Assembly (NCBI RefSeq): GCF_905475395.1
Contig: NC_058339.1
Coordinates: forward strand, 87,058,520 to 87,122,519
Length of the DNA: 64,000 bases
Direction: 5' to 3'
Source of the DNA: Chrysoperla carnea
Lineage: Eukaryota; Arthropoda; Insecta; Neuroptera; Chrysopidae
Shown here: one piece after another, positions 9,166 to 57,385 of the stretch
How the letters are laid out: every line of letters begins with the position of its first letter
Position numbering within the stretch: position 1 is the stretch's first letter
Notes under the pieces: model-generated
The model's database searches: none
Told to the model about the DNA's origin: nothing
What the model saw: the letters and a program-made list of their open reading frames with translations, nothing else
Made by a program: the position numbers and the translations under genes

Positions 9166-9930
9166 AAAAACAAGTGAAAACAAACAATTGACTGATTTAA
9201 TTGTTGAAATACCATGTAGAGACAGTGTTGATGACGTAATCGTTTGTTTTTTGACGTCACGTAAATAAAAAAAGATATCCACTTTTAAATACCCACACAC
9301 ACACAACTGATATTTGCATATTAATCATACTATAAAATTTGCACGTAATTAGCGCCCTCGTGGGTAAACAGTGATGTTTACAAAAAAATGTTTTCAACAA
9401 AAGTTGTAAATTTTTTTATAAGCAATATTTTTTATATTTAAACTTTTGTTCTATCTCTAACGGTTTAAAAGATTGAGACCACGGACTATACAATTTACGC
9501 ATAATTTGCGCTCTCACGAGTAAACAGTGATGTTTACGAAAAAATGTTTCAAACAAAAGTTGTTTATTTTGTTATAAGGAACATTATAAATATATTTATT
9601 TTCTGTTATATCTCTAACGGCTTACAAGATGGGTTCTACGGACCCAAGACCCAATTGACCAATGTTGCTCATTTACGAACTTGACCTCACTTTTTACTTC
9701 CCAAACACGCTATATAAATTTCAGCTTGATATCTGTTTTCGTTTTTGAGTAATCGTGATGACAGACGGACAGACAGACGACAGACAGACAGATAACCGGA
9801 AAGGGACTAATTAGGTGATTTTATGAACACCTTTATCAAAATTTGGTTCATAGTATTAATATTTTTAAGCGTTACAAACTTGGGACTAAACTTAATATAC
9901 CATGTGTATTTCATATACATGGTATAAAAA
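9166..9930 (+). mobile_element. Complete HINE-like interspersed element, reference copy
   Basis: Starts with AAAACAAGTGAAAACAAACA and has ATACCATGTAGAGACAG near the head. It has a variable middle, a (CAGA)-rich stretch around 9770-9805, and ends in a palindrome (ACCATGTGTAT TTC ATATACATGGTATA). The motif near the head is inverted relative to the right arm of the 3' palindrome. This subterminal inverted-motif plan with a 3' stem-loop is typical of Helentron-associated rolling-circle elements. A stretch of about 156 bp in the middle (GTAAACAGTGATGTTTA at 9364 and again at 9520) is directly duplicated. There is no coding capacity, so the element is non-autonomous. Confidence 0.65.
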
Positions 9931-11862
9931 TAAGAGGCGTTCACTAAATTACGGTAGTTTTGTGACAGCCAGTATATCATATTTTAGGGATTCCCCTTAA
10001 ATGTCGCATTGTAGGAATGTAGAGATAAAGAACACATATCTCTGTGTTTGTATTCCTAATCTCTACATTCCATAATACAAACTAATGGAAATAACTATAT
10101 ATATCAACGTTTGTGGGAAATACCGTCAAACATAAACGGAAAACGAATACAAAGGGTTGCCAGTTCAGGAATGAAAAATCGGTAAAAAATTCGGGATAAT
10201 TTTTATGTTCTCAATTTAAAATTTATATTTATTGAAACATTTGGTTCGTTCTTTTCTATTTAGGGGAAGGTGTCCTATTATGATCCCCCTATAAAAAAAT
10301 TTAATTTATAGGCAAAATTTATCAAAAGGGATCGTTTTACTGGCCTTATAAGACCAGGTGGGTAAAATGATTTCAATGAATGTTTTACTAAACAGTTGAC
10401 ATAAATAAATTAATTGTTTTTTTTTTTCATTGCATCAACGATTAGCAAGAAAACAAAAATCACTGATAAAATCATCTAAATCAACACATTCACACATTCA
10501 AGATCCACCACATGATGGGGAATCATTTTATAATTTTACACACAAAATAGGGATCATTTTAACGTATATAAATGGGATCATTTTACTCGAAACGACATAT
10601 TTGAATATCGTCATAAAAACTGACCTTAAAATTTTTTATATGTCTATCAAAATGTGTTATAATATTAATAAAATTCAACAGAAGCCAAGAGTAAAACAAC
10701 CAGCAGGCGATAACTAAACTAAAAAAGAAATTTTACGTTGAAATTTGCAAACACAAAATAGCTCATACATCGCCATTAATCTTTGTTGCACGATTAATTA
10801 TTTGATCACGTGAAAGCCATTTATCGATAAATATACTAGATGGCTTTAATGGTTCGCTTAAAACAACGAGCAATCATTATATAGATCTTAGAATTTTCGT
10901 AGGAGACCGAATTAAAAAATTGGTTTCCAATTATGGTAATTTCAATAAGATTTTTCTTTCTTGAAAAAACTAATGACTCCGTGGAACTGTCCGGCGCACT
11001 CAATTTTGCCGCCCCTAATTTTTGTCGCTCCAGGCATTTGCTCGGCTGGCCTCCCCTTAGTTGGGCCCTGCTTTTGTTTTTATGGATACCCTGTATTAAA
11101 CGAAACATGCCACAATATTTTAATTTATAAAGAACTTGTATGGTTAGCACCCAAAGTATGTCGCCAACCCTCAGTGTACGGCTAACTATTGCTGAAATCG
11201 TGAGTAGAGTTAATCGTTAGCTGCTGTACTATAGCTAGGAAAATTAAATTTTAGTATTTATTATGACTTAATTAAAAAAAAAATGATAGTGCTTTCATAG
11301 TGAATAAAAATTAATATTAATATATTCTTGCTGCAGCTTTTTTTCAATTAAAAAATTTAATCGATAAAATTAGAATGTCGGATATTATCTTGCTCTATTA
11401 ATTAAATAAGCAGGCAATATAATTTTATGTTAATTGTGTAAAAAATATATAGGTGAGGCTTTTTATGTAATTTAAAAAGTTTTGCATTATTCATTGAAAA
11501 ACGTTACCTCTTGGTTATTGTAAAATCGGATGCTGTTTTACTGCGAGGACGAGTTGAGTTATTTTTGATGTAATCGATTGTTACATTGCAACATGAAATT
11601 GCATTTTAATAATCATAAATGTTTATTGTTAATTTAATTTGTTAATTTAAAATCAATGATTGTACTTTAAGGCGTCCAAAAATTAAATTAAACGTAATAT
11701 TATTGTTTTTGCACGTGATTTAATTATAAATCGACAATAATTAAATTTTTTATTTAAATTTAATTTAATTATTTATTAAAAATAATTTAAATCTAAATAA
11801 ATAAATATTCAATTGTAATTAATTTGTGTGTAAATAAAGTTGGATTTTTAATTTTTATTAAA
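9931..11862. other. Intergenic region upstream of the P450 gene
   Basis: No gene recognised. A short hairpin has arms near 10013-10026 and 10059-10072 (GGAATGTAGAGAT). A GC-richer patch at about 10985-11075 (GCCGCCCCTAAT ... GTTGGGCCCTGC) resembles the degenerate end of a hAT-type transposon but has no clean partner. The last 600 bp before the ATG is extremely AT-rich. Confidence 0.4.
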
Positions 11863-13165
11863 ATGATTGAAAATAAATTAAATGATATTAATAATAATGA
11901 TAATAGTTTATCAACTTATTTTTTATTAAAATATACATTATTGACAATTATTGTAATTAGTGTTATTAAATTTTATTGGGATCGACGTCGATTATATATA
12001 TGTGCATTGAAATTTTCTGGACCCACAGCTATACCGCTCCTTGGGAATGCTCTGCTTTTTGCTGTACAACCCGAAGGTAAGATTAATTCTTCTATAAATA
12101 ATTTAATTTATTTTTTCTTGTTGAAAATTAAAAGCTGAATTTTCTAGTCAGAGGTTACAAAATAGATACCCTCTACACAGAACACAGAAAAAGAGGTTTT
12201 CTTGGCTCAAGAATATTAAAAACTTAACGAAAAATTGCTTGATTTAAGCAATTATTTCCTGTGAAATCCTTTTTTTCTGCGTACGTTAAACAATATTAAA
12301 AAATGTGAAAAAAATTTTTTTTTGTGTCTTCTATGACGATTGACTCATTTTTAACACGCTTTTATTAGCTTCATACGTATGTTAGTATGTTAGTATGTAA
12401 CTTATAATCTTTGAATCTTTGACCATGATTTTCACACCCTACAAAACGTCGGATTAACTCGAAATTTGGCATACCTACTTAAGATTATTTGATTATCCTG
12501 ATCAGGATTTTCAAGATTAATGATTATTTGCGCTCTCACCATATTTTATACTGAATTTTTCATAAATAAATAAAAGTGTAAAAAACCAAAAAAAAACAAA
12601 ATAAATAATAGTTTAAAAAACTAAAAAATACGCTTTTGTGACAAGCTGAACTAAAAGGTAGAAAATAATTTCTTTCAATTAAAAAAAAATCATTTTATCG
12701 TAAAAAAGCGTGGAGTGCTTTTTAAGATATTTTAAAATGACTTTACTTTTACCAATATCTGTCTATAAAATAATTACAATAATTGAAATTTAGCACCTCC
12801 CGCTTTTTTACGATAAAATGATTTTTTTGAATTTGAAGAATTGATTTTCTATCTTTTAGTTCAGAGGAAAAGCGTGTTATTTAGGTTTTTAAACTTTCAT
12901 TTATTGGTATTGAACTCAGTAGATATAGGATCGTAGGGATTTCACAAAATAGACTTAAAAATGGAAGTTTTTTTAAATTTCTTAATTTAATTTAATTAGA
13001 GTTATAAAATTTTTTAATGGAATTGTCTATCATTAACCTTTCGTGCTTGATAAGACAATTTAATTATAATAAAGCAACCTACTTAGATAATTAAAAAAAT
13101 AATTAAACTGAAGTATTTTATAATTTTTTAATTTGTATTCTGCAATTTTCTTATTTGAACGTCAT

Positions 13166-13207
<42 letters not shown>

Positions 13208-18155: not shown

Positions 18156-18191
<36 letters not shown>

Positions 18192-19634: not shown

Positions 19635-20180
19635 AAAAAACAAGTGAAAACAAACAATTGACTGAGTTAATTGTTGAAATATCATGTATAGACAGTGTTG
19701 ATGACGCAATCGTTTGTCACGTTTCACATTTCACATATACCTATACATGTCACACAGACATAACTGATTATCCCATATTAATACATACTATAAAATTTGC
19801 ATCTAATGTGTGTACTCGCGAGTAAATAGTGATGTTTACAAAAAAATGTTTCAAATAAAAGTTCTTTATTTTTTGATAAGGAAATTTTTTACATTTAAAC
19901 TTTTGTTCTATATTTAACGGTTTACAATTGACCTATGTTGCTCATTTACGACCTCACTTTTTACGTCCTGAGTGCGTTGTAAAAATTTCAGCTTGATATC
20001 TTTTTTCGTTTTTGAGTTATCGTGTTCATAGACGGACGGACAGACAACTGAAAATGGACTAATTAAATGATTTTATGAACACCTATACCAAATTTTTTTT
20101 TCGTATCATCAATATTGTTAAGCGTTACGAACTTGAAATTAAATACTTATACCATGTATATTTCATATATACATGGTATA
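19635..20180 (+). mobile_element. HINE-like interspersed element, near-complete copy
   Basis: Head AAACAAGTGAAAACAAACA, subterminal ATCATGTATAGACAGTG, CAGACGGACGGACAGACA block near 20030, and 3' palindrome ATACCATGTATATTTC then ATATATACATGGTATA. It lies between the P450 and tektin genes. The middle is single copy. Confidence 0.7.
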
Positions 20181-20502
20181 AAAATATTTCTTTACTCTTT
20201 TTATTGTTATTCGTTAAAATGAAAAATTGTATTGATTAAGGTGGGACAAGTTTTCATTGTTTTACTTTGAAACCTTTTAAAAAATATATCGATTACTCTC
20301 TTGAAAGGGATGAATATATTCGAAACCGTTAAACGTAAAATTAGGTAAATTTGTTTCTCTAGCAATACCATGGAAATTATTGAAACATAATTATTGATCT
20401 AACAAAAATATTTTATATACTGTGTATTTTTGTATACAAAAATTATTTTATAAAAAAAATATTTTTCATTTTTTAAATATTTATTAGAAATATTCTTACC
20501 AA

Positions 20503-23500
20503 ATGTATGTTATGAGAAATTTAGCTCAATCAGCCCTTGAGGGCATGCCACCACCTCCGCCAAAATTTACGTTAGATGAATGGACAATCAGTAATTTGCG
20601 AAGATCGGGTATTGTTGAAGATCAACAACAATTAGCAGAACGGATTATAGCAGAATCTCAGAGGTAATTAAAATTTCTCATTTTGAAATCAAGAATGACA
20701 AAAATTTTATTTAAAAATGTTAAAATAGGTATTCAAATCTTGACCTTTTGCAATTTTAAATTTTAGATAGAGAACACTAATAGACCACCAGGAATCATGT
20801 TGAAAAAGATGTTCCTATATGTAACAGTAAGTTTAAGCACCATGGCGTCAGTTTTGCGCGATGGGTAGACGTGAGAATATAAATGCGGGAATGAGACACT
20901 CCTTGGTCTCATCCCCGCACCAGCAAATATGTACGGTGTTGCTGGAAACTAGCTCTGCATAAGTATTTTTTTAATCTTTCGGTACCGAAATTACCGGTTT
21001 TTTTCTGCATGACATTTATGTAATTCGCTTCGAATACTTATACAGATTTAGTATCCAGCAATGCCGTACATATTTGCTGGTGCAGGGGTTGCACACCAAG
21101 GGATGTGATATTCATATTCTTACTGGTACTCACCAGTATCGTGCAAAACTGACGCTATGGTGATTAGACTTACTTTTACATATGGAAACATATTTTTCAA
21201 AATGAATCCTGGTGTGTCATTTCTCCCAAAAATTTTTGCATGGGCTTGTATTCTACAACTCGATTTTCGGGCTTCACTTTTACATTGCCCGTTAGTGTTA
21301 ATAAATTTAATTAGTTAATAAATTTTTTTTGTGATATTTGTATTTTTATAGGGTTTACGATGAAGTTCTTGGCAAATCGAAACGTAGTAAGATGGAAAGT
21401 GATCATCGTTTACGTGAACGAGTGAATGATTTAAACTTTTACAAGAATGAAATTTTACTACAACGAAAAAAAATCTGTGTTGAATTGGACGCTTTGGAGG
21501 TTTATAAGGATCGGATTTACGATGGCATGGCTTCTGTAGATAAAAATGCAATGGCTGTTGTGAAAAAATGTTTATTATTAAGGTAAAATAAATACTAGCA
21601 GATAAGGTTTACAACTTTTTGAAGACCGTGATTCCAAGCTATAATGTCAAATTGGATCTATTAATTTTCCTGAAGGCGCAGGTGTGATGGTTGTTATGTA
21701 TATATAGAACACATACCTGAATATTGGACTGAGCCAGAAAACTTTATACCAGAAAGACTTCTACCTGAATTATGTGATAAACGGCATCTTTTTGCTTATG
21801 TACCGTTTTAGTAAAAAAAAAAGATAAATCCAGTCAGAAACTTTTTGTATTAATTTCAGAGAACAACGTGCTGGTATCGATTTAGCTCACGATGATGTGG
21901 AACTTGAATTACGTAAAGAGTACGAAGTGATTGAAAGCGTTCAACAAATGTTACGGCGTACATTAGAACAAACGCAAGAACAAATTCGTCGAATTAAATC
22001 AACATTCTATTTAATTGATCGTGATTTAGAAGATAAAGAAAATGCATTGAAAATTGATGAATTAAATACTAAATTAACTGAGAAAAGTACGAGTTTGCGC
22101 GTGTATCATGGAGTAACACCTTTAACACCATCGTAAGTATCCAACGAGTTTTTTTTTATTAAAAGAAATCGTAAATCGTAAGTTTGCTGTCAAACTGTCG
22201 GCGAATTCGAGCAGCAAATTTCAGGTAATTTCAACATCAAATTACCGTCAATATCAATTTAAAGTGGCTATAAGAGTTATAATTAAATAGACCAATCGCT
22301 TCATGTGATGGTGCTTCAAAAGCAATTTTTTTTATCTCAAACTAGGAACAAACAATTTAATTATAATAATTTATCTTAGTTTTGCTCTATTTTTAAAGGA
22401 GGGCATTGTGATTTAAAGGTAGGGCATTTCCCCACAGTACCCTCCCCATTCGCTACGACCGTGTATGAATGCGAACTTAAAATATACAAACGGAAATGAT
22501 ATTTTATGGAATTCATCAGATTAAAGTTATTTACCCTGCAGATGAAAAATATGCTGAGTATAAAGTTTTTCTTTACCTGAGGTCACTTAATGTTTATCCT
22601 AAGTGGTTTTTCCTTTGTGTATGTTTGCATTGTAAATGTTACATGTAATTAATATCAAAACACATTTATTACATGCAAATGTAATTATGATTGAATGTAT
22701 TAAGCTACTAAAACCAGGATTACATATGAATAATTTTTCATAAATTATCATTCATTATAAGAGAGTATAGTCTAGTCGACAAGTTGAAAAGGGTGAAAAA
22801 CATAGATACTGCTCTTAAATATATGTGCAATAGCTCTTTTTTAGTACATAAAAAATTGCAAAAGTTATAAACAATAAAAAGTATAAAACAAGAGAAAACA
22901 AACAATTGACTGAGTTAATTGTCGAAATACCATGTATGGACAGTGTTGATTACTCTGTCTGATACTATAACTGATATAACCATAACATACATACTATACA
23001 ATTTTGTGCTCTCACGGGTAAACAGTGATGTTTACGAAAAAATGTTGTTTAATATTTTATAAGGAACATTTTTTACATTTAAATTTTTGTTCTATCTCTA
23101 ACGGTTTACAAGATAGGTCCTACGCAGCAAAGACCCAAATGACCTTATGACTCCTTAGAAAAATTCGAAAAAATCGTAAAAAATTATTTGTTTCGGAATT
23201 TGATGAAACTCAGTTTATAAGGTAATTTTGACCCAAGAAATTCAAAAATCGAGTTTATTTGGCGATTGGCCGAGAAATTTTCGAAAAAAACGATATTTCG
23301 GATCGATTTCCGGTATTATCTCGAGAATTATTCGCCCAATCGTTAAATGAAACCGATTTTTGTATTTTGTGGGTCAAAATTACCTTATATACAGAGTTTT
23401 ATCGAAATTGGAGACGATAAATTTATATCGATTTTTTGCAATTTTTTCAAGGGGTACCCCTTAGAAAAATTCGAAAAAATCGTAAAAAATTATTTGTTTC

Positions 23501-26500
23501 GGAATTTGATGAAACTCAGTTTATAAGGTAATTTTGACCCAAGAAATTCAAAAATCGAGTTTATTTGGCGATTGGCCGAGAAATTTTCGAAAAAAACGAT
23601 ATTTCGGATCGATTTTCGGTATTATCTCGAGAATTATTCGCCCAATCGTTAAATGAAGCCGATTTTTGTATTTTTTGGGTCAAAATTACCTTATATACAG
23701 AGTTTTATCGAAATTGGAAACGATAAATTTATATCGATTTTTTGCAATTTTTTCAAGGGGTACCCCTTAGAAAAATTCGAAAAAATCGTAAAAAATTATT
23801 TGTTTCGGAATTTGATGAAACTCAGTTTATAAGGTAATTTTGACCCAAGAAATTCAAAAATCGAGTTTATTTGGCGATTGGTCGAGAAATTTTCGAAAAA
23901 AAACGATATTTCGGATCGATTTTCGGTATTATCTCGAGAATTATTCGCCCAATCGTTAAATGAAGCCGATTTTTGTATTTTTTGGGTCAAAATTACCTTA
24001 TATACAGAGTTTTATCGAAATTGGAAACGATAAATTTATATCGATTTTTTGCAATTTTTTCAAGGGGTACCCCTTAGAAAAATTCGAAAAAATCGTAAAA
24101 AATTATTTGTTTCGGAATTTGATGAAACTCAGTTTATAAGGTAATTTTGACCCAAGAAATTCAAAAATCGAGTTTATTTGGCGATTGGTCGAGAAATTTT
24201 CGAAAAAAACGATATTTCGGATCGATTTTCGGTATTATCTCGAGAATTATTCGCCCAATCGTTAAATGAAACCGATTTTTGTATTTTTTGGGTCAAAATT
24301 ACCTTATATACAGAGTTTTATCGAAATGGGAGACGATAAATTTGTATCGATTTTTTGCAATTTTTTCAAGGGGTACCCCTCAGAAAAATTCGAAAGAATC
24401 GTAAAAAATTATTTGTTTCGGAATTTGATGAAACTCAGTTTATAAGGTAATTTTGACCCAAGAAATTCAAAAATCGAGTTTATTTGGCGATTGGCCGAGA
24501 AATTTTCGAAAAAAACGATATTTCGGATCGATTTTCGGTATTATCTCGAGAATTATTCGCCCAATCGTTAAATGAAACCGATTTTTGTATTTTTTGGGTC
24601 AAAATTACCTTATATACAGAGTTTTATCGAAATGGGAGACGATAAATTTGTATCGATTTTTTGCAATTTTTTCAAGGGGTACCCCTTAAATTTTCTAGAA
24701 ATTTATAAATTGTATTGAGCCGTAATTTGTGGAATTCCATAATGATTAATAATAAAAACACAATTTTTATTTGCATTAATACATAATAAAAAAGCGGAAT
24801 TAATGCAAATAAAAATTGTGTTTTTATTATTAAAAATTATATATCTTTTTTTCCTTTTAATTGTTTATAACTTGTTCAATTTTTTATGTGTTAAAAAATG
24901 CTTTCGGCACATTTTTCTAAACATAGCAGTATCTCTATTTTTCATCATTTTCAACTTGTCGAATAGACTATAGTAGTGATTATGTATTTAGAAAAAATTG
25001 TGTAGGTATTACTCCAGTGCAGATTCATTTATAACTTTTATATCTATTAATAATTTACATACTCATCTTTTAAGAATAAACATTATTAGGACCGGATTTA
25101 ACATTAGCGCCGTCCCTGGGCAAAGTGAAAAATGTCACCTCATTATCGAAATTTTACTTAAAATGAATAAAATTACGATGTACAATTTTTAAATAAAATG
25201 ACTCATTTATAGCAGAGAATTTAAGGAGGCTATCATGTGTACTAAGGATTATGATTACTCATAAATTGCAATATACTGTTTATATTTTCATAGAGACAAA
25301 CGTGTCTGACTTTTTGATTTGGAAAGTGATCAATTAAATTTTCACTATCTGAGCGTTGAAGTACAGCCGATTCTATGCACAGAATAGCTAAGCCATTTAG
25401 TTTATTCCTACTCATTGAGGATTGTAAGCAATTTGATTCCTCTTTTCAAACATGAAAGCGAACGTTCTGCCCTACAGTGTGTTATAGCTAATGTGAAAAT
25501 ATTCGATATGCTATTTATACGATCAGAAACTCAGTGTAAAGTTTGTTCGTTTGCACTAAATTTGGGTCGTGTTTTCGTGTTAGTTACTCGCTTATATCAG
25601 TCCATGTGCCAAATTAATATTGAGACCATGAGGTTGCAATTTTGAAAAATACTGTAGTTACGTTAAATTTGAAAAGTATGACCCAAAATTAGAGGAATTA
25701 CATACTTGTTTTTTTAAGTTAAGATAAAATTTGGGTGAGATAGAGCAAAATCAAATTTTTTCATTTTAATGACGTCATAAAGTATAAAAAATCAACTTAA
25801 TTAAAAATATTTTGGCCAAATTTTATACGATTTTAATGAAATTTTTGTGGAAACCAATTTTTTTGCTTTTTTCTCATTTTTTGTAATAGTTATTCCCTTT
25901 TACCAGTCCTTTTGCCAAATTCAGAAACTGTGATGTTGAAATATTGAAAACATTGCAGTCTCGTTAGATTTAACCAAAAATTTGAAAATTATTTCTCAAA
26001 CTTAGCGGAATTACATGCTTTAATATTTAGGCGTTTAATCCTTAAGCCTTAGTTTAACAAATTAATGGTACGGAATACTGAATAGAAAAATCAAAGAAAA
26101 TGATATTTATATGACGATAATTTAATTAACGAACATGTTTAGCATATTTTCAAGGGTAATTATTAGCAAGGAATCTGCATTTTTTTTACTAAAAACACAT
26201 AAAACTTGTTTTCAATAATTAATCACCTATACACCTACTTGGAAATATTCTATGTGGTCAGATTTCTTAATAATTTCCTGGAGAATTGGAGATATTTTAT
26301 TGGTTTGGGAAAAATATCAATTAATAAATTAATAATTATATAATTTTGAATATCTCTTTTATAGTCGTATTACAAAAGCAAATCTCGATAATTCGATTTT
26401 CACAGGGAAATATAAAAGAGTTAGAGAATCTTTCAAATCAGTAATCGATGTTAAATTTATTGCGACCTAGAAGATTTTGAGCTATGAAGGTTCTAGGACA

Positions 26501-29500: not shown

Positions 29501-30387
29501 GAAACAGTAAATATCCTTGGAGGGAAATATATATGCTGCTCCCGTTTTAATATTTTGTTTTAACTTTTTTTTGCAGACCGTACGAAAAGCAAATGAAATG
29601 ATTAACAATATCAATAAATTAGAGACAGCGGTTATTGATATGGAAAACCATTTAGCTTTAGCACATACACGACTTGGTAATCGTGGTCAACGAAGTGGTG
29701 TTGAATTATGTCGTGATCATGCAGAAATTCAATTGGTTAATGAAATTAGTGAGATTGAAAGTAATGCTGATAAATTACGTCTTGCATTAGCAGAGGTAAT
29801 GTAGTACGATCCATTCGTTATGAATTGATATTAAAGTTGAATCATCCATGAAATTAAAATTGCATTATTTCAAATTTCTATGGCAAAATTTCAAAATATT
29901 GATGCTACCAACTAAATTTTGGTATAGGTGTTCATAAAATCACCTAATTAGTCCATTACCGACTGTCCATCTCTCTGTCTGCCTGTCTGCCTGTCCGTCT
30001 GTCACCACGATAACTCGAAAATGAACAGAAATAGATATTACGCTGAAATTTTAGGCATTTATAGGACGTAAAAAGTGAGATCGAGTTCCTAAATGAACAA
30101 CATAGGTGAATTGGGTGTTGTGTCCGTAGGACCAAACTTGTAAACCGTTAGAGATTGAACAAAAGATTCAATGAATATTTAATAGTGATTTTAAAATTAA
30201 AATAATCGGATTGGTTCTCTAATTCTAATTAATAACGATAAATTTTCAGGCTCAAGCTTCTTTACGTTATTTGATGCGTTGTCAAATTCAATTGGAAGAA
30301 GATATTAATGTTAAAATCACCGCATTGAAAATTGATGAAGTTGATTGTATGACTCTTCGTCAAGCTATGGATTATCATGCATATTGA
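20503..30387 (+). CDS. TEKT1: Tektin-1, ciliary/flagellar microtubule inner protein
   Basis: Tektins are coiled-coil filaments inside the doublet microtubules of cilia and flagella; in insects expression is expected in sperm and chordotonal neurons. Exons 20503-20663, 21352-21582, 21860-22132, 27833-28055, 29577-29795 and 30250-30387 join in phase to 414 aa, close to about 418 in vertebrate tektin-1. The N-terminus PPPPKFTLDEW matches the tektin-1 type. Long heptad-rich helices fill about 40-330. The signature nonapeptide reads RSGVELCRD (335-343) instead of RPNVELCRD. The tail has AQASLRYLMRCQIQLEEDI and a TALKIDEVDCM motif diagnostic of tektin-1. The chosen start is the first ATG of the exon; an in-frame ATG follows three codons later. 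A TTATTAG just upstream could be an acceptor from a 5' UTR exon. Intron 3 is 5.7 kb and repeat-filled. Confidence 0.95.
21670..21812 (+). pseudogene. Fragment of P450 exon 5 inserted in tektin intron 2
   Basis: About 140 bp aligns at roughly 90% with P450 exon 5 (about 17971-18110). It shares GGTGTGATGGTTGTTATGTA, the PERF-coding stretch and GCTTATGTACCG. It has a small insertion and a deletion that break the frame, and stops just before the haem-ligand codons. It carries no intron sequence and no poly-A, so retroposition and short DNA duplication are both possible. Confidence 0.9.
22886..24690 (+). mobile_element. HINE-like element carrying a 306-bp satellite array
   Basis: The head (AAACAAGAGAAAACAAACA, ATACCATGTATGGACAGTG, ACGGGTAAACAGTGATGTTT) runs to about 23150 and passes directly into the tandem array. 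No 3' palindrome is found after the array, so the copy is 3'-truncated or ends differently. It is a close sister of the copy at 35577. Confidence 0.65.
23155..24686 (+). repeat. 306-bp satellite, five units
   Basis: Unit starts at 23155, 23461, 23767, 24074 and 24380, ending at 24686; spacing is 306-307 bp. Units are nearly identical. Each later boundary carries the 10-bp palindrome GGGGTACCCC. Several internal stretches (AATTTTCGAAAAAAACGATA and others) recur in both polarities within a unit. The short minus-strand open frame found in units is not conserved as a gene. Confidence 0.95.
24746..24833. repeat. Long perfect hairpin, 35-bp arms
   Basis: Arms 24746-24780 and 24799-24833 are exact inverted copies around an 18-bp loop. 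The core CACAATTTTTATTTGCATTA is present in both. It lies just 3' of the satellite array and could be the end structure of a transposon or a small-RNA precursor. Function unknown. Confidence 0.9.
25415..26030 (-). repeat. Diverged relics of the 315-bp satellite, reversed
   Basis: On the minus strand it reads TTTGATTTTGCTCTAT, GTATGTAATTCCTCTAA and TTTGGGTCATACTTTTCAA with TGACGTCAT. These are the landmarks of the unit at 37407-40036. Two poorly matching units can be followed. Confidence 0.6.
26943..27617 (+). pseudogene. Dead non-LTR retrotransposon reverse transcriptase
   Basis: A single frame reads PIYKAGDKHKTTNYRPISLI, then AKAFDTVDH (motif A), GVPQDKILGPLLFFLYMNDI (motif B) and AYADDTKI (motif C). 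Two in-frame stops (27135 and 27321) kill it. The motif A region reads FLNLAKAFD where FLDL is usual, so a catalytic Asp is lost. GVPQG has become GVPQD. It is a jockey/CR1-type LINE, clade not resolved. Confidence 0.85.
28343..28562 (+). repeat. Two tandem copies of a 110-bp unit in tektin intron 4
   Basis: GTTATAAGCATTCAAAGATT starts at 28343 and again at 28453. Both copies contain GATACCGGTCAATGACATCA. The copies differ at a few bases and small indels. Confidence 0.85.
29918..30175 (-). mobile_element. Partial HINE-like element, reversed, in tektin intron 5
   Basis: On the minus strand it reads TCTAACGGTTTACAAG, TCATTTAGGAACTCGATC, then the CAGACGGACAGGCAGACAGG block and CTAATTAGGTGATTTTATGA. 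Both the head and the 3' palindrome are missing. Confidence 0.65.
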
Positions 30388-37278: not shown

Positions 37279-40072
37279 GAAAAAACAAGTGGGAACAAAC
37301 AATTTGCTGAGTTAATTGTTGAAATACCATGCATAGACAGTGTTGATGACGCAATAGTTTGTTTTTTGACGTCATGTAAATAAAGAAAGGTATCCACTCT
37401 TAAATAGCCTGTGTTTTTTAAAAAAATCGAATTTTTGAACTTGATGACGTCATTAAAATTCAAAATATTTAATTTTGCTCTATTACATCGAAATTTTATC
37501 CAATTTTGATAAACAAAGTATGTAATCCTACTAAATTTGGGCCATACTTTTCAAATTTTTGGTCAAAATTAACCTAGTAATAGGTTTCAAGAATGTGGAG
37601 GTCTGGTTTCGGAATTAAGCACATAAGTGATAACTAGCGAAAAACTGACATCACAGCTGGAAAGAATGACCCAAAATTAGTGGGTTTCAAAAAAAATTCC
37701 AATAAGATCGGATCAAAATTGCCTGTGTTATTAAAAAAATCGAATTTTTGAACTTGATGACGTCATCAAGATTCAAGATATTTAATTTTGCTCTATTACA
37801 TCGAAATATCCAATTTTGATAAACAAAGCATGAAATCCTACTAAATTTGGGCCATACTTTTCAAATTTGTGGTCAAAATTAACCTAGCAGTAATAGGTTT
37901 CAAGAATGTGGAGGTCTGGTCTCGGAATTAAGTACATAAGTGATAACTAGCGAAAAACTGACATAACAGCAGAAAAGAATGACCCAAAATTAGTGGGTTT
38001 CAAAAAAAATTCCAATAAGATCGGATCAAAATTGCCTGTGTTATTAAAAAAATCGAATTTTTGAACTTGATGACGTCATCAAAATTCAAAATATTTAATT
38101 TTGCTCTATTGCATCGAAATTTTATCCAATTTTGATAAACAAAGTATGTAATCCTACTAAATTTGGGACATACTTTTCAAATTTTTGGTCAAAATTAACC
38201 TAGCACTAATAGGTTTCCAGAATATGGAGGTCTGGTTTCGGAATTAAGCACATAAGTGATAACTAGCGAAAAACTGACATCATAGCAGAAAAGAATGACC
38301 CAAAATTAGTGGGTTTCAAAAACAATTCTTATAAGATCGGATCAAAATTGCCTGTGTTATTAAAAAAATCGAATTTTGAACTTGATGACGTCATCAAAAT
38401 TCAAAATATTTAATTTTGCTCTATTACATCGAAATTTTATCCAATTTTGATAAACAAAGTATGTAATCCTACTAAATTTGGGCCATACTTTTCAAATTTG
38501 TGGTCAAAATTAACCTAGCACTAATAGGTTTCAAGAATGTGGAGGTCTGGTTTCGGAATTAAGCACATAAGTGATAACTAGCGAAAAACTGACATCACAG
38601 CTGAAAAGAATGACCCAAAATTAGTGGGTTTCAAAAAAAATTCCAATAAGATCGGATCAACATTGCCTGTGTTATTAAAAAAATCGAATTTTTGAACTTG
38701 ATGACGTCATCAAAATTCAAAATATTTAATTTTGCTCTATTACATCGAAATTTTATCCAATTTTGATAAACAAAGTATGAAATCCTACTAAATTTGGGCC
38801 ATACTTTTCAAATTTTTGGTCAAAATTAACCTAGCACTAATAGGTTTCAAGAATATGGAGGTCTGGTTTCGGAATTAAGCACATAAGTGATAACTAGCGA
38901 AAAACTGACATCATAGCAGAAAAGAATGACCCAAAATTAGTGGGTTTCAAAAAAAATTTCAATAAGATCGGATCAAAATTGCCTGTGTTATTAAAAAAAT
39001 CGAATTTTGAACTTGATGACGTCATCAAAATTCAAAATATTTAATTTTGCTCTATTACATCGAAATTTTATCCAATTTTGATAAACAAAGTATGTAATCC
39101 TACTAAATTTGGGCCATACTTTTCAAATTTGTGGTCAAAATTAACCTAGCAATAATAGGTTTCAAGAATATGGAGGTCTGGTTTCGGAATTAAGCACATA
39201 AATGATAACTAGCGAAAAACTGACATCACAGCTGAAAAGAATGACCCAAAATTAGTGGGTTTCAAAAAAAATTCCAATAAGATCGGATCAAAATTGCCTG
39301 TGTTATTAAAAAAATCGAATTTTTGAACTTGATGACGTCATCAAAATTCAAAATATTTAATTTTGCTCTATTACATCGAAATTTTTTCCAATTTTGATAA
39401 ACAAACTATGAAATCCTACTAAATTTGGGCCATACTTTTCAAATTTTTGGTCAAAATTAACCTAGCACTCATAGGTTTCAAGAATGTGGAGGTCTGGTTT
39501 CGGAATTAAGCACATAAGTGATAACTAGCGAAAAACTGACATCACAGCTGAAAAGAATGACCCAAAATTAGTGGGTTTCAAAAAAAATTCCATTAGGATC
39601 GGATTAAAATTGCCTGTGTTATTTAAAAAAATCGAATTTTTGAACTTGATGACGTCATCAAAATTCAAAATATTTAATTTTGCTGTATTACATCGAAATT
39701 TTATCCAATTTGATAAACAAAGCATGAAATCCTACTAAATTTGGGCCATACTTTTCAAATATGTGGTCAAAATTAACCTAGCAGTAATAGGTTTCAAGAA
39801 TGTGGAGGTCTGGTCTCGGAATTAAGTACATTAGTGATAACTAGCGAAAAACTGACATCACAGCTGAAAAGAATGACCCAAAATTAGTGGGTTTCAAAAA
39901 AAATTCCAATAAGATCGGATCAAAATTGCCTGTGTTATTTAAAAAAATCGAATTTTTGAACTTGATGACGTCATCAAAATTCAGAATATTTAATTTTGCT
40001 CTATTACATCGAAATTTTATCCAATTTCGATAAACTAAGTAAGTATGTATACTACATATATACATGGTATAA
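37279..40072 (+). mobile_element. HINE-like element with both ends, enclosing a 315-bp satellite array
   Basis: The head (AAAAACAAGTGGGAACAAAC, ATACCATGCATAGACAGTG, TTTTTTGACGTCATG) at 37279-37406 joins the array. After the array the right arm of the family's 3' palindrome (ATATATACATGGTATAAT) closes the element at about 40055-40072. This is the only array-bearing copy here in which both ends can be seen. Confidence 0.7.
37407..40036 (+). repeat. 315-bp satellite, eight full units plus a partial
   Basis: Units start (GCCTGTGTTAT) at 37407, 37721, 38034, 38350, 38665, 38981, 39296, 39612 and 39928; spacing is 313-316 bp. Every full unit carries GATGACGTCAT, which contains the palindrome TGACGTCA (a CRE-type site). 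The motif TTTGGGCCATACTTTTCAAA is in most units. Small differences shared by alternate units hint at expansion by blocks of two. Confidence 0.95.
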
Positions 40073-41231
40073 TAAACTCCATCTTCAATAATTTTTTTTT
40101 TATTTAGATATAATTAAGTTAATTAATAAGAAGATATAGCAAATAAATAATTAAAAAGATAAAATAAGTAGTTAAAAAGATAGATAAAAATAAAATTAAA
40201 ATATTTTTAAATTTTGTAATTACTCTTTGAGATCTTATTGTCCCAGATTATAAAAATATAGCAATTTTTATTTATTAAAAAAATTAATAATTTAAAAAAA
40301 AAAAATAGATTCACAAAAATTGAGACTTTTTTACCGAAACTTGAACTAAGATCAACTAACTATGTAGAAGTCAGTCATCCTGTTGATCGTGTTAATTAAT
40401 TAGTATTAAGAATAAAGTTTTAAGTACATTAAAAAATAAAAATAAATTTTAGTTCCATACTCCATAATCTCTAGCGAGATTTGAACTACGGTCATCTAAA
40501 CGGAAGTCAAGTACATTGTTAACTGTCCTAATTCTTATCTTTGAGGAATGAATTCTATTAAAATCAAATCCATTACAAACTATAAAAATCAACTCGATTA
40601 AAAAAAAATTATTATTTGATTTTTATAAAAATAATAATTAATAAATGACCTATTTTGATTTTTCCTATTTTATTGAAAATGTTTACAAATAAACATCTTT
40701 TAAAAAATATTTTTATTGAAAATTTTGATAGACATTTCATCAGATTTAAATAAACAAAAAATTATATAAAAATTAAATGACTCAACGTAAAACTTTTAAT
40801 TGGTAATAAATCATTGAAAAATGTCATAAAATTAACGCATCCTTAAATCTTTTAATAATTCTTTGTGAAAATCTTATTATCCTAGACCATAAAAAAACAA
40901 TAATGCATGATAATTGACTTGATAAAAAATCATCATTAAGTAAGTATTGTTATTTATACAAAAATTTAAAAGAATTAGTTATATTAATAATTTATTTACC
41001 TACTAGATAATGATAGTGCTGGTAACGTCGCAAAACAGTTGATTTCACAGATTATAATTTATTACATACATAGATAGGCAACTCTACTGAACATGAAATG
41101 TTGTCCAAAAAGCTCCCTGGTACTTTCGAAAAGTTTCGAAAACCAAAACAAGAGCTTTATTAGGCTGAATTTTTTAAAACTTTTCTAATTTATAAAAATA
41201 AAGCAAGCACTGTTATTCATCACTTTTTATT

Positions 41232-41282
41232 CAAGGTATTTTAACAATTAACTCAGTCAATTGTTTGTTTTCACTTGTTTTA
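41232..41282 (-). mobile_element. Head fragment of the HINE-like family
   Basis: On the minus strand: AAAACAAGTGAAAACAAACA then ATTGACTGAGTTAATTGTTA. Only the first 50 bp or so is present. Confidence 0.7.
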
Positions 41283-42576: not shown

Positions 42577-42645
42577 AAAAACAAGTGAAAATAAACAATT
42601 GACTGAGTTAGATGTTGAAATATCCTGTTTAAAAAGTGTTGAATA
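42577..42645 (+). mobile_element. Head fragment of the HINE-like family
   Basis: AAAACAAGTGAAAATAAACA followed by ATTGACTGAGTTAGATG, then diverging from the family. Confidence 0.65.
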
Positions 42646-43052
42646 GCAGTGCTTGCATTAATATTGTATAAACTAGAAAAGTTCAAGAAACCAACACAAT
42701 TATGGCGGTCTTTCGGCCCCTGGATTTTTTTTGTTTTTCCAAAGACTGTTTCCAAAGACCACTAGTTGAAGTTACCTGCAAATTCTCAACTGCTTATCTT
42801 TTGTAGTTTCGGAGAGTCACCAAAGTTTGGTCCTAATTTACTATATAGTCTGCTTACACCTTCATTCTTCTGATGAGAAAAATTCTCAAAAAGTTGAAAG
42901 TTCTTTTTTTAAAATCTAGATAAGTTGGAAAAACCTGAAAAATTCATATTTCGAAAATAGATAAAATTATATGAAGATAGAAAAAGTTTCAATCACATAT
43001 ACCATTTGAAAAAAAAGCGGTCTAGGTGCGACCCGAAAGGTCCACACGACTA

Positions 43053-46951: not shown

Positions 46952-49792
46952 TCATGTGTTATTCTGATGTATGGGCTATATTGCTGTATACAGTTTCATT
47001 AAAAAATCAATCGCTAGTTTTTGCGTGAAAGTGTAACAAACAAACATCCCTACTTTCACATTTATAATATATAGGGATAAATTATACAAAATTAAACTTT
47101 CACCATGCCTGTCCATCCAAAATGAAAAATCGAGCTAAAATTTTTTAATTTAGGATGTGAAAATTGATTTTGAGTTCGTAAACGAGCAAAATAGGTTAAT
47201 CTTATAAAATATAACATGTAGCATAGATATATAGGTACCAAAAATGCCCCTTTGGAAAATAACAACTTTTGTTTAAAATATTTTTCGTAAACTTCATAGT
47301 TTTTCTGCAAGAGTTAATAGGAGCAAACCTTTAGTTTTCATTTTGTTCGAAACTAAACAAGATAGACGTTTAAAAATTGTAGATACAAAATTGAGACTAA
47401 ACTTAATATACTTATAGATAGATTCCAAATAGGTGGAGGGCATAAAAGTAAGGTCAGGTATTGAAAAGTGTGTATACAGAATATTTAAACAATTAACTCA
47501 ATTGTTCATTTGTTCAATTGTCAATAGATTATTTTAAATTGTTTTATTTCGATTTTTGGAGTGAATTTAATAACTTTTTCTGTCAGAAAGTAAAATCAGT
47601 TATTATTATTTTGTAAGCAGTAGATAAATAAAAGTATGCATATTGTATGATTGAATTTATAATGTTATATAAATAGCTATAAAATCAAAAATCCCCAATA
47701 GGGGTTTTCCTTATAGGTAGTTGAAATAATTTAGAAATTATTGAGGTAACAGTGTAACACAGTTTTTTTTTTTAAATTGTATTGCGCAGTTTAGTTAATT
47801 AAATATTTTTTAAATACCTAGTAGGTACTTATGATTTAATTATTAATAATGTCCAAAATTTTAACTCTTTTTACAAAATAAATGTGTTAAGGTAGTACCA
47901 GCATGAAATCACTTTTCGACAGATTTGGCCGAATTTTTTTTCTCGGGTTTATAATAGCTTTATTTATGAATTCCTGAAATTTCATAATTTTTGACCGTTT
48001 AGATCGCGAGATATTTAAAGACAAAGTTCGCGATTTTGAGGGTCATGTCCCATTTAAAGCATGTAAAATGTCCGGTCTCTCCAACTATTTTTTATGATAT
48101 TATTATATTTATATTGAAGAAAAAGTAGAAAAAAATGTTTATACAATAAAATTCTAAAAAAATTTAGAAATTAATTTTCACTTTCGAGATATTAATTTTG
48201 ACGTAAATTGATCGAAATTGGGACGTTGGCATAATTATTTCCCATTTTAAACAGTCAAAATTTCTGAAACTTTGGGAATTAATAGTAAGCATTATTAAAT
48301 TTTTAAATTTAATTTTTCGTTAAATTCTGTCGAAAAAAAAATTGTACCATTGCTTTAACATAGAAACTGCAAATACCATGCTGGAACATCGTTAATTACA
48401 TAAATAATATGTGCTACATTTTTAGGGGACCAATTTTGGGCATAATGGCTTAGACGAATTGAAAGGAAATTTTCTTTCTTGATTATCGTATGAGAAATTA
48501 CACTTCTAATTCGTTGCTATTGGAAAACTTTGTTCACTCGCTTATTTGAGCGCAAAAAAATCAACTACAATGACGTATATATTTCAAAATTTATTTCTAG
48601 GAAAAAATATTTTATTTGACTATAAAAATATTTTTAATTAACAGGTATAGCTATTAATTTTATAAGGAAAAAAAATTAATAGCTATACCTGTTAAAGAAC
48701 CGTTGGTTTATGACCTATCTGAATATAATTTTGTTGAGGCTATATTTAGAAAAGTTTACAGAGTGAACATCTAATTCTAAAAATTATCATGAAGAATAGT
48801 TTTACATAACCTTAAAAGCTTTTTCTAGAAAAGCTCAATATTCCCAACTTTTCCCTCCTTTTTGATTAAGTATTTTTGATAAAAAAACTATAAAAATATA
48901 AAATTAGTTTTATGAGATATCGAAATGTTTCAATTGGCGTGACAAAATCATGACTTAATATTCATCTAATCCGTAAAAATATTAAAAACACTTGTAAATA
49001 TCACTCTTGAATAAGTTGAATGACTAGAAAATTAGTTTAAGCAATAATATGAATTTTTTTTTCATAAATATTTATGTAGGTTTAGGTATTACAATTAATT
49101 AAATATTTAATTTTAAACTGCTTCAAACCAGTTAATAACTTTATAATGAAGTTTCAAATACTTTTTTTTAAAATTTGCTGTGGCCTTAAGCTATAGTTTG
49201 TGTTTATTATTATTTTTTTGGTTAATTTATTGAAATGTTATTTTTTATTGATTTAAAAAAATCTCATTGATTTAAAAACATCCTTATGATAATCAAGTTC
49301 ATATCAATGCATGTGTGCCGAAAAATGCCTAAAAATTTAAAAATTAACTGGTACTTTGCGTCTTCTGGTTTTCTTAAAATAAAAGCTTTCCTTTGATTAT
49401 GGCGGTCCATAACCTACATCATTTTTGAGAGGTAAAAACACTTTTCACCCAACCAATTCATAACTTAAACATGAACTGTATTTCTAAAGTGAATTCGAAA
49501 TTCTGGTGCTAGTGAGTGCTAGACTATAAATATCCATAACATTGACAAATATTTTTTAAAATTTTACCTTGTTTGTAAAAAAATAAAAAAATTTATTTTG
49601 TATAATTTATTTGTAAAATCACATTGAAATTATCATGAAAATTGATCGTAAATGTCCTTTCATTTCAATCCTTGCTTAAAGACGTTAATTTCAGTATTAT
49701 AATATCAAGAAGTTCAAACAGTTTTCACCGAATAATATTTCACTTCTCCATTATAAGGGTATTGAAGAACTAATTCAACTTTCGTTTTTAGC
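46952..49792. other. Intergenic region with repeat fragments
   Basis: About 47092-47420 is a strongly diverged reversed piece of the HINE-like family. About 47889-48350 starts with TTAAGGTAGTACCAGC, an end of the AAGGTAGTAC family. A long hairpin lies at 48638-48695. No gene seen. Confidence 0.45.
48638..48695. repeat. Perfect hairpin, 24-bp arms
   Basis: Arms 48638-48661 and 48672-48695 are exact inverted copies (TTAACAGGTATAGCTATTAA in both) around a 10-bp loop. Function unknown. Confidence 0.9.
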
Positions 49793-50899: not shown

Positions 50900-50966
50900 T
50901 TCTACACTTTCTATACAGGGTATTTCAACAATTCACTCAGTCAATTATTTGTTCACCCTTGTTTTA
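50900..50966 (-). mobile_element. Head of a second HINE-like unit abutting a full copy
   Basis: On the minus strand: AAAACAAGGGTGAACAAATA, ATTGACTGAGTGAATTGTTG, ATACCCTGTATAGAAAGTG. It starts immediately after the 3' palindrome of the copy at 50967-51476, giving a head-to-tail pair. Confidence 0.75.
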
Positions 50967-51476
50967 CTATGTATATGAAATATATCAAGGTATACTAAGT
51001 TTAGTTCCAATTTTGTAACGCTTAAAAATATTGATGCTATGAACAAAATTTTGCTATAGGTGTTCATAAAATCACCTAATTAGTCCATTTCGTTTTGTCT
51101 GTCTGTCTGCGCGTCTGTTATCACGATTACTCAAAAACGAAAAGAGATATCAAGGTGAAATTTTTATAGCGTGCTGAGGACGTAAAGAGTGAGGTAAAGT
51201 TCGTAAATGAGTAACATAGGTTAGTTGCATCTTGCGTCCGTAGGACCCATTTTCTTAACCGTTAGAGATAGAACAAAAGGTTAAATAACTTTTGTTTGAT
51301 ACATTTTTTCGTGAACATCACTGTTTACCCGTGAGAATTATGCGCAAATTGTATGTATTATATGGGTATATCAGGTATATGTGTGTGACATGTATGTATG
51401 TGTAATGTGACAGAGTAATCAACAGAGTCTATACATGGTATTTCAACAATTAACGCAGTCAATTTTTTGTTTACAG
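50967..51476 (-). mobile_element. Complete HINE-like element, reversed
   Basis: On the minus strand: head AAACAAAAAATTGACTGCG, ATACCATGTATAGACTCTG, ACGGGTAAACAGTGATGTTC, CAGACGCGCAGACAGACAG, and a 3' end with a decayed palindrome. No tandem array; single-copy middle. No coding capacity. Confidence 0.7.
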
Positions 51477-52529
51477 TTCTTTCTACCTAATTTCCATACG
51501 AAAAAAAATATCCAAAATTCAGTCGGGTTAAAATTCATTCTCGAAAACTTAACCCTCACTCGTATCAAGGTTCAAGGCATATTTAATTGTTTGTACATTT
51601 TGGTTTCAAAACAAAACAATTACCTTAATTATAAATTATTGTGACTGAATAATAGATAAATGATTATTTCATCTACGTGCGAAACAAATTTTTTTTTTTT
51701 TGATTCATGGTAATTAATTCATATTTTCTGTCATAAAATAAAAAATAATCACGTTTTATTAAATTTTATCTACCTACATTATTAGTTTTAATTGTAAAAT
51801 AATAATGAATAATTCATTGCTTGGCCTTCGGTGAAAAGTGGAAAAATCAACTTTCGTCCAATAGTTTAGAAAATAGCATTGGATTACATGAATAGCCCCA
51901 TAATAACACATAAATTAAAATTTACTTGTGCATCGCATGGATGATTTCCCTCGATTCTAATTTTTTGCTTGGTGGATAAGTTTAATCGAGAGTAAGCTTG
52001 CTATGTTTTAAAAAAATTTGCTTAGGTGTCGTCACTACATTTCTTAGCCTGTACTTGAAACATTGCTAAAAACACTCTCGATCAAATTACCTTTCAAACA
52101 AAAAGACAAAAAAAAAAATTCTAAATCAGTTTATTCGCTTACAAGCTACGATGCCACAGGCAAGCATACAGATACACAGATATGTTAAACTTTAAACAAC
52201 CTCTCCTTTTGCCTGTAGTTTAAAAATAAATAGTTTGTGTGTGTGTACGTTTTATTTCACGCCAACACCAAACGTTTTTAATCGCCCCCACAACTTTCAA
52301 TCTGACGAATATCCGCTTTATTGTGTTAATCAATGAAGGAAAATGCAAAAACCGGTTTGTCCGGCATTGAATTAAGGGATAGGTCCGTTGTCCATCAACT
52401 TGAAAATTGAGAAGATCGAAATGACAATGTATGCTGATGGACCACCAAGCCTAAAAAACCTTTAAAATTTCATAATTTTTATTTTGAAAATGTTGAAAAG
52501 TACCCAAAAATTTACAATTAACCTAGTAT
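51477..52529. other. AT-rich sequence with an interspersed repeat
   Basis: About 52018-52210 shares CTTGAAACATTGCTAAAAAC-type sequence and a GCCACAGGCAAGCATACAGA block with 56370-56540, so both are copies of a third interspersed repeat. No gene seen. Confidence 0.45.
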
Positions 52530-55242: not shown

Positions 55243-55454
55243 GATTTCATATGAAGTTTAAATAAACTATTTACATTTTTAATGTTTTAAAATGTATTAG
55301 TTCTATAATTGATGTCGTTTAAACCTAATATTGATGTAATGCTTTACGATAATTATGATATAGAGATAAACACATTTGATTTATATAAAAGCAGTTAAAA
55401 AGTTTTTATTTTTAAGTTAAATGAAATGAAAGCCCGTTAAAATACCTCACACTA

Positions 55455-55717
55455 ATGGTAGGTCCACACGATACCAACTTCACACAGACTTTTATCGAAA
55501 TTTGTCTGCGCAACAAATCAGTGCAAACAAAAGTCCGCATGATGGTAAAAAAGTCTGAGTTAAAAAAGTCTGAGCCCGAAAGTTGGAAGTATTCCCATAC
55601 TAATGATAAGTCTCCACACACATTTCGTCATCATATTTACATGAACATTTTTACTCAGAGTTTCACTCTGTACAGATATCTATACAAACAATAGTCTGTA
55701 TCGTGTGGACCCACCAT
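55455..55717. mobile_element. MITE-like element with 20-bp inverted ends
   Basis: Ends ATGGTAGGTCCACACGATAC (55455-55474) and its reversed partner at 55698-55717 match at 19 of 20. The 263-bp body has no coding content. No clear target duplication. Confidence 0.75.
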
Positions 55718-57127
55718 AACAACATAGGAATTAGGTTTCAACAATATGGGTCTAACTTTGAGATTCAACTCTATCACCTAAATCGCTTTTTAGTAATACA
55801 TACAAAAGTGTGTATCTGCATTACAGTGACCTAGTTTTTAACCCTAAGGAAGATATATTTGCTACAAAACTTAAATTTTTTTCTTAAATCAAAAATATAT
55901 GAGATCTATCATATTCATTTATAGTAAAATACAAAGAACAAGTGAAATTTACAAAATTTAAAAAACTCTTTTGGATTTTTGGAAACTTAGCTATAAAATG
56001 TTATCAATCGAGTCGGTTTGACCGTTTATGAGCTACGGGCTATGCCACTGAGAAACACTTAGACGTATAGATAAACACTTTAAACTTATAGCACTCCTTC
56101 TTAAATCATTATCAAAGTGATGGCCAAGGACATCAGGTGAGATGAAAAGGATACTTAGAGAGCTATCATTTTTTGGGACAAATTTTTGGAAATATTTTAA
56201 TTGTAATTGAAATATTTGAGTTGAGTTTGTTCTTTAAAATTATTGTTTCGAATTACTTAATTATTTTACCATTTCTATGTTAAAATTATATGTCATGCCT
56301 TTGCCAAACTGAATCGGTTTAGAAGATCATCGCCAATTTTTTAGATTCTTCGGGTACGAAATTTTAATCTCGCACTTGAAACATAGCTGAGAACATTCTC
56401 CGTTTAGATTAATTAAGAACTTTCAAATGAAACCAAAAAAATTAAAATCGATTGCCACAGACAGACAAACATACAGACACACACATATAGCGGTCAAACA
56501 TATAACACCCCTTTTTTTAGTTCGGGGGTTAAAAATTAGTTTTATCAGTGATTTATTTTCAGTCAAAATCATGTTTCATTGCTTGGAGGGCAATCACATA
56601 TAATATTCATAAGCTTAGAAAGGCCGGGCCTTCTTAGCAAACCACGTATTGGGACATCATACGAAACATTATTCAATTGTAATGAATTTCTGGTATAAAA
56701 AAGTAATTATCAAATAAAAAACAGAAATATTCCGGCCATTCAATGTAAAAATAGCCCGATCATCCTAGTCAAAAAAAGTGGCCAACCTCGGAATTTAACG
56801 GAATACGCTGAATTTTTTGTACAAACGTTTATTTTGATAATACAAATGCCTGAAAAGTCACATATCACGTGTGGGCGTCCTTAGATAGTCAAGGTCAAAG
56901 GTCGCGAAATATAATTTTTTGAGAATATTTCGTTTCCTTTGCTTTCAATCGTATTTTGTCTGGAAGTTTTTTATATACGTTGGGCCGTTTTTAAATAGGG
57001 GGCGCAGAAAATGGAGCGCTCAGCTATACGAACTTGAATGCAGGGTCAATATTTAAGTAGTATTTAATGAATAATTATTTAATACCTTATATAACGTACA
57101 AAAATAGTTTCAGCTAAATTTGCAGAT

Positions 57128-57385
57128 AATTTTATCTTGTACATTTTTTCGTAGACATCACTGGTTTACCCGTGAGGACGAAAATTAGGTCAGAAATATT
57201 ATATAGTATGAATATATTTAAGTATGATTTATTCGCTACCTATATTATGTATATGTTTGTTTGTTTATAGCATATACATGGTCCACTGAGGAAATGAGAT
57301 GAAAGATACTCTTATTACTTTGTGTGTAAGAGTGGCTTTCTTTCTTTACTTACATGATGTTAAAAAACAAATGTTTTCACTTGTT
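57128..57385 (-). mobile_element. HINE-like element fragment, reversed
   Basis: On the minus strand: AACAAGTGAAAACATTTG, ACATCATGTAAGTAAAGAAAG and, at the other end, ACGGGTAAACCAGTGATG then AAAAAATGTAC. Internal and 3' parts are missing. Confidence 0.6.

Follow-up and report, generated by a model that had tools for sequence, protein, structure and literature searches.

What are the repeated non-coding pieces that share one end in a stretch of the green lacewing (Chrysoperla carnea) genome, what moves them, and do the satellite arrays inside some of them travel as part of the element? The window (the whole stretch of 64,000 nucleotides analyzed here, C3:87,058,520-87,122,519, in a searched genome of 559,487,470 bases and 337 contigs) carries many pieces of a very common non-coding mobile element whose mover is probably a rolling-circle transposon of the same genome. 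It is very likely that these pieces belong to a large family of HINEs, the non-autonomous Helentrons, which a Helentron protein mobilizes and in one lineage of which a 306 bp satellite has replaced the middle of the element. A 20-base signature of the family has 6763 exact matches in the genome (3418 + 3345) and its reversed control has none. A first-pass annotation, made from the letters of the window, had called at least a dozen pieces with a common "head" motif, and the count agrees: the motif matches the window eight times at no more than three mismatches (0.06 expected), a 51 nt terminal query finds 11 sites (the last one degenerate, 75%), and two body-only pieces (29890-30196 and 57126-57371) bring the number to about a dozen. 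The pieces are, in window coordinates:

7448..7589, plus strand: HINE 3'-end remnant
9166..9930, minus strand: complete simple HINE, with the 5' subterminal inverted repeat (subTIR) and its inverse forming a hairpin at the high end and the 3' terminus at the low end
19635..20186, minus strand: complete simple HINE
22885..24690, minus strand: HINE-306 (with a 306 bp array), 3' terminus and 3' body kept, 5' terminus lost
23153..24688, minus strand (the element's strand): 306 bp satellite array of 5.0 units, inside the preceding HINE-306
29890..30196, plus strand: HINE body fragment without termini
35574..36735, minus strand: HINE-306, 5' terminus lost; array 35843-36719, 2.9 units
37282..40072, minus strand: HINE termini around a 315/316 bp satellite array (37402-40045, 8.4 units)
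41178..41281, plus strand: Helentron-type 3'-terminus remnant; the sequence upstream resembles that of the candidate autonomous Helentron L071 (see below)
42578..42683, minus strand: Helentron-type 3'-terminus remnant, 81% identical to L071 over 108 nt
47473..47521, plus strand: degenerate 3'-terminus match (75%)
50900..50965, plus strand: HINE 3'-terminus remnant, with the next copy directly after it
50966..51485, plus strand: nearly complete simple HINE, degenerate 5' subTIR and inverse; 3' terminus 51430-51485
57126..57371, plus strand: HINE body and 3' fragments

Anatomy, polarity and target site

Read in its true polarity, the element begins at a T-run, which is followed by ATACCATGTATA-loop-TATACATGGTAT, the 5' subTIR and its inverse, a sequence that folds as a DNA hairpin (-12.2 kcal/mol, z -6.4). 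Next comes the body, with either a GTCY microsatellite (the GACA repeat visible in the window is GTCY on the opposite strand) or a satellite array, and then TATACATGGTAT again as the 3' subTIR, a short AACAATT..AATTGTT stem-loop, CACTTGT and a closing T-run. At the 5' end ATACC begins 2-5 nt inside the T-run, and at the 3' end 39 nt separate the end of TATACATGGTAT from that of CACTTGT; the 3' stem has 7 bp and a 9 nt loop and ends 13 nt before the terminus. In published HINEs (PMC4067079) the subTIR lies 2-4 nt inside the 5' end and its inverse 38-60 nt inside the 3' end, with a palindrome at 8-35 nt from the 3' terminus; in those of oysters the 5' side also carries a GTCY microsatellite and a second, inverse form of the subTIR (PMC7492417). 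The anatomy of the window elements fits this published spacing only when they are read in the direction opposite to that of the first-pass annotation, so that its "head" is in fact the 3' terminus and its "3' palindrome" is the 5' subTIR with its inverse. DINE-like elements are easily read backwards, and the case may serve as a caution.

Other details of the early description fare better. The copies at 9166, 19635 and 50966 do have a simple middle, and the one at 9166 contains the reported tandem duplication of about 156 bp (9329-9643; 9329-9486 against 9485-9643, 79% identical). The copy at 50966 lies on the strand opposite to the other two and abuts the T-run end of the terminus at 50900-50965. 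The palindrome said to be common to all complete copies is present at 9166 and 19635 and degenerate in the 50966 copy, where it escaped a scan that allowed up to three mismatches per arm, but it is absent from both 306 bp copies in the window.

The target site was analyzed in 37 copies; a script gave 39 end pairs, from which L051 (a wrong 5' pick) and a spurious window pair (44935-42581) were dropped. In the 5' flank T stands at position -2 in all 37 copies and at -1, -4 and -5 in 36, and in the 3' flank T stands at +1 and +2 past CTTGT in 31 (24 of 30 without the seven copies fetched by a probe that itself contained Ts after CTTGT). Once Ts are stripped, the longest stretch that the 5' and 3' flanks have in common averages 2.35, against 2.28 when flanks are re-paired at random, and 73 of 200 such trials reach the observed value; because flank similarity equals that of randomly re-paired flanks, these 37 copies give no indication of target duplication. 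Four matches span a junction as an empty site might, of which two are the copies' own loci and one covers only 40 bp; a paralogous empty site for the copy in L006 (L065:3280-3201) spans the joined flanks at a T-run with 76% identity. The T-rich, unmodified target of HINEs is therefore seen both in the 37 copies and in one paralogous empty site, and the test proposed in the first-pass annotation, for insertion between Ts without duplication, speaks for a HINE.

A candidate Helentron with the same 3' terminus

A search of the genome with the Helitron_like_N profile gives 64 matches, the best-scoring of which are canonical Helitrons (with RGLPH in L021). One match, L071 on the minus strand of contig C192, contains an open frame of 2158 amino acids with Helitron_like_N and PIF1 domains above cut-off and a C-terminal match to Exo_endo_phos_2 (E 0.0018 for the whole protein and 1.2e-4 for the last 250 amino acids, both below the curated cut-off). 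Rep, PIF1 and an apurinic/apyrimidinic (AP)-type endonuclease thus lie in one frame, in the Helentron manner, with the endonuclease as the weakest part. By sequence, the protein's matches among solved structures are PIF1 helicases and Helraiser (19 entries). Its Rep motif is EFQQRGSAHVH; the Helentron sign is ExQxRGS(P/L)HxH rather than RGL (available text of PMC4067079), so that L071 has the serine of Helentrons and an alanine that falls outside the listed P/L.

About 2.3 kb past the L071 stop codon lies a terminus identical to the HINE 3' terminus in 58 of 62 columns. When the genome was searched with the 2.6 kb 3' part of L071 (50 matches, 40 candidates scored), six further loci were found among those scored that share 190-390 bp above this terminus and end at query positions 2457, 2467, 2469, 2470, 2477 and 2482, the last base of CACTTGT being 2466. 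The locus on C4 also holds the end of the open reading frame and several pieces of the 3' untranslated region (UTR) in order, past a 29 kb interruption. The L071 flank, from query position 2463 on, recurs at 99% identity at 32 or more sites, most of them on C6 and C7 with spacings of about 6.5 or 11.2 kb, and one fetched copy of this repeat is an empty site with a T-run. Since six loci stop at or close to it and flank copies are empty, the terminus is the 3' end of the Helentron; and since it is the 3' end in the orientation of the Helentron's own gene, the direction in which the HINEs must be read is settled. L071 is therefore an autonomous Helentron with the HINE 3' terminus, an end that the six other loci share, and it is a candidate for the partner (Rep, helicase and endonuclease) that the first-pass annotation had proposed to look for, although its endonuclease match stays below the cut-off. 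On the 5' side of the C192 insertion, all 40 scored flank matches are identical empty units elsewhere.

The repeat into which the C192 Helentron is inserted forms a tandem array at C6:5-271 kb and on C7, with the 6.5 and 11.2 kb spacings. The published assembly paper mentions a large X-associated repeat, which may be this one. Ribosomal DNA was considered and set aside, since neither L071 nor L098 has an Rfam match, and the repeat is left unnamed here.

Two other Rep-encoding loci were tried as partners and rejected. L069 (C7:370500-380400) is Helitron-like and joins Rep, PIF1 and an OTU protease in a single open frame, whose reported length is 2462 amino acids, and L070 (C3:3765000-3774400) has Rep and OTU in separate frames; no HINE termini are present in the stretch fetched for either. 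L070 is part of a head-to-tail array (C3:3767553 to 3809352) of seven Helitron-like, Rep-encoding units with an OTU-protease frame, mostly 5,813 bp apart and 99.97% identical where compared.

The HINE/Helentron class, which the first-pass annotation had supposed, is supported by the spacing of the subTIRs, the hairpin at the 5' end, the GTCY-type microsatellite, insertion into T-runs without target duplication and an autonomous Helentron with a common 3' terminus. Several observations weigh on the other side. The endonuclease match of L071 is below the Pfam cut-off, and its last 250 amino acids have no match at E <= 1 in a phmmer search of solved structures. The 65 nt 3' end of the HINE folds no better than its shuffles (z 0.28). 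Only one convincing HINE empty site, at 76% identity, was found among the sequences fetched. The terminus shared with the Helentron is the 3' one only, the 5' terminus of L071 being beyond the fetched sequence. A HINE 5' body, 93-95% identical to other HINEs, does lie upstream of the L071 gene, but it is absent from the related 5' UTR on C1, which starts downstream of it; it is for this reason probably a nested HINE, and it was dropped as proof of a common 5' end. The kinship concerns the terminus, and it may not extend to the HINE body.

Two other kinds of element must be weighed against this class. A miniature inverted-repeat transposable element (MITE), moved by cut-and-paste with a DDE transposase, would also be short and numerous and have an inverted motif near both ends, and DINE-1 itself was formerly classed as a MITE. 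In the lacewing family, however, the inverted motif stands at the end of the element on one side but 39 nt inside it on the other, the flanks show no target duplication above chance, and the 3' terminus is common to a Rep/helicase element, so that a MITE is a very improbable description. Indeed, none of the three findings that the first-pass annotation had named as contrary (consistent duplication of the target, genuine terminal inverted repeats, arrays confined to DNA beyond the element ends) was made, and the HINE reading stands. It is just as improbable that the family is the non-autonomous partner of the genome's canonical Helitrons. These do show signs of recent activity (over the aligned stretch, 13 loci match L013 at 99.5% identity or more), but the 30 fetched Helitron_like_N loci, which extend about 1.5 kb past the Rep domain and so cover full ends in part, contain no HINE head or 17 nt subTIR motif (two 12-mers with one mismatch were seen). 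Canonical Helitrons begin with 5'-TC and end with CTRR-3', whereas the HINE ends are T-run/ATACC and CTTGT/T-run, with no TC...CTRR. The recently active canonical Helitron itself comprises L013-L023, L028 and L034, with open frames up to 1528 amino acids, some of them interrupted.

Satellites inside and outside the elements

The 306 bp arrays noted at the outset in the copies at 22885 and 35574 lie at 23153-24688 and 35843-36719, and the two HINE-306 copies are 97% identical across 1146 bp. Thirty loci with 306 bp arrays were fetched, six of which repeat a neighbor, leaving 24 distinct arrays. Both HINE ends are present in nine of these, only the 3' end in four (among them L040, where an inverted piece continues past the edge of the locus) and only the 5' end in eight (among them L068, whose array continues past the edge); L043 has a HINE-side junction only, and in L041 and L067 there is no HINE sequence beside the array on the single visible side, L067 having a distant 23 bp partial HINE match in an unexpected orientation. 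In the nine complete HINE-306 elements the array, of about 2 to 6.5 monomers, has a single orientation and usually the same junctions, and copies that have lost an end are usually broken within the array, which is joined there to unrelated DNA. Genome-wide, 159 5' and 138 3' HINE-306 junctions are found at no more than two mismatches, with none for the controls. One position in the terminus reads T in 12 of the 13 copies with a satellite (the other is unreadable), and in 32 other fetched copies it is A in 23, C in one and T in none, eight being unreadable. Because of these common junctions on both sides and the lineage-specific terminal T, the 306 bp array looks to have been acquired once and then amplified in one founder lineage.

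The HINE-306 at 22885 is flanked by inverted copies, about 125 bp long and 81% identical, of some other sequence (22766-22888 and 24847-24972), and a further palindrome adjoins the array end of this element.

The 315 bp satellite behaves differently. Its array at 37402-40045, correctly described as unrelated to the 306 bp one (alignment score 29, shuffle mean about 25), replaces the middle of a single HINE at 37282-40072. Among the 40 scored of 2991 candidates, a 151-base junction query has its only full-length match in the window, and the other 39 align over 81-103 bases, all on its HINE side. Six further 315 bp arrays, picked by size from the 40 listed, have no HINE termini beside them; L092 has a 76% HINE 5' fragment about 950 bp from its array, and the arrays in L093 and L095 share the same start and end phase where the remaining fetched arrays differ. 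As the junction is unique among the scored matches and all six arrays lack termini, this satellite also spreads without this HINE, and the one HINE that contains it looks like the product of a one-off event. An old, inverted remnant of the same satellite, 70-80% identical to the 37402 array, lies at 25572-26021.

That the arrays are independent satellites, hit by or recombined with HINEs and not cargo that moves with the element, is on balance somewhat probable, and the two satellites pull this judgment in opposite directions. For the 315 bp satellite the single junction, the six arrays without adjoining termini and array ends that join unrelated DNA directly all favor it, as do the two 306 bp arrays with no HINE sequence on the one visible side. 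Against it, for the 306 bp satellite, stand the fixed junctions on both sides, the lineage-specific terminal base, and HINE sequence at both ends of nine arrays and at one side of 13 more. The early proposal, of a single HINE family that captures different satellites and amplifies them, is thus retained for the 306 bp satellite, in one lineage, and not for the 315 bp satellite.

For the HINE family and its 306 bp lineage the following course is the most likely. The Helentron Rep/helicase/endonuclease protein, for which the open-frame copy on C192 is a candidate, would recognize the HINE termini, and the element would be copied by rolling circle and inserted into T-runs without target duplication. 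In one lineage the middle would have been replaced once by the nearly self-complementary 306 bp satellite, and HINE-306 has since multiplied with its array, with array length varying and copies often breaking inside it.

Aligned with its reverse complement, the 306 bp monomer is identical at 246 of 294 bases (score 240, where the best of 50 shuffles reaches 38), and its DNA fold has a free energy of -71.1 kcal/mol (z -10.6); self-complementarity of the 315 bp unit is far weaker (score 60, best shuffle 39). The satellite copies are also unevenly distributed. Of the exact HINE-306 5' junctions, 85 of 97 are in C3:62-94 Mb or C4:0-24 Mb, which together make up 10% of the genome, and the two blocks hold 92 of 100 HINE-306 3' junctions among the matches listed and, of 40 scored in each case, 34 of the 306 bp arrays, 28 of the 315 bp arrays and six simple HINEs (C3 and C4 are taken as autosomes 3 and 4, and C6 as the X, from chromosome sizes). 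The blocks were drawn after the lists had been seen, so that these statistics are descriptive only, and best-match lists favor kin of the C3 query; for both reasons the concentration is an observation to test. A bolder and rather unlikely idea is that the monomer is a cargo that alters its carrier: its dyad might form a hairpin with arms of about 150 bp in a single-stranded rolling-circle intermediate and so drive array expansion and breakage, while both the satellite copies and the 315 bp satellite might spread mainly within two autosomal domains, as if reintegration followed nuclear neighborhood or a formerly single chromosome arm.

Neighboring genes and comparison with known systems

Apart from the mobile elements, the window contains three tandem ionotropic-receptor-like (ligand-gated-channel) genes on the minus strand (53428-55257, 57564-59420 and 62358-64000; DNA 82-89% identical), the first two with a Pfam Lig_chan match and the third recognized by DNA similarity only, and a cytochrome P450 exon at 15980-16669 (Pfam p450, 1.9e-28).

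Oysters and fruit flies have already provided examples of such elements with satellites, and the lacewing is a further case. In Drosophila, DINE-TR1 reportedly has tandem repeats within a DINE-1-like element that spread along with it; the likeness is in the element-borne tandem repeats, and for the lacewing it concerns the HINE-borne 306 bp arrays. Satellite arrays inside HINEs are known from the oyster and have been reviewed (PMC12628747), and a search limited to one literature library gave no paper on Helitrons and satellites in Chrysoperla. The lacewing thus joins the organisms with satellite-bearing non-autonomous Helentrons, with thousands of copies and, elsewhere in the assembly, an open-frame Helentron as candidate partner. 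Two points go beyond classification, namely a satellite lineage that, unlike the simple element, is concentrated in about 10% of the genome and a monomer that is nearly self-complementary.

DINE-1 and HINE-Mo, with their Helentrons, agree with the lacewing family in the subTIR positions, the position of the putative 3' palindrome, insertion into T-runs without target modification and a candidate partner of the Rep/PIF1/AP-endonuclease type (PMC4067079). The mite HINEs are presented there as simple deletion derivatives of Helentrons, whereas in the lacewing the part seen to be common to both is the 3' terminus. A close parallel is Cg_HINE of the oyster Crassostrea gigas (PMC7492417), which likewise has a 5' subTIR with its inverse and a GTCY microsatellite, a 3' subTIR and a palindrome (putative in the lacewing), a T-rich target with no duplication, and a central satellite-like array in fixed orientation, with some satellites outside elements too. 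The two differ in host and sequence, in the unit (138-181 bp in the oyster, a nearly self-complementary 306 bp monomer in the lacewing), in that the lacewing array takes the place of the microsatellite region, and in that the lacewing satellite copies are concentrated in two blocks, where no chromosomal preference is reported for the oyster.

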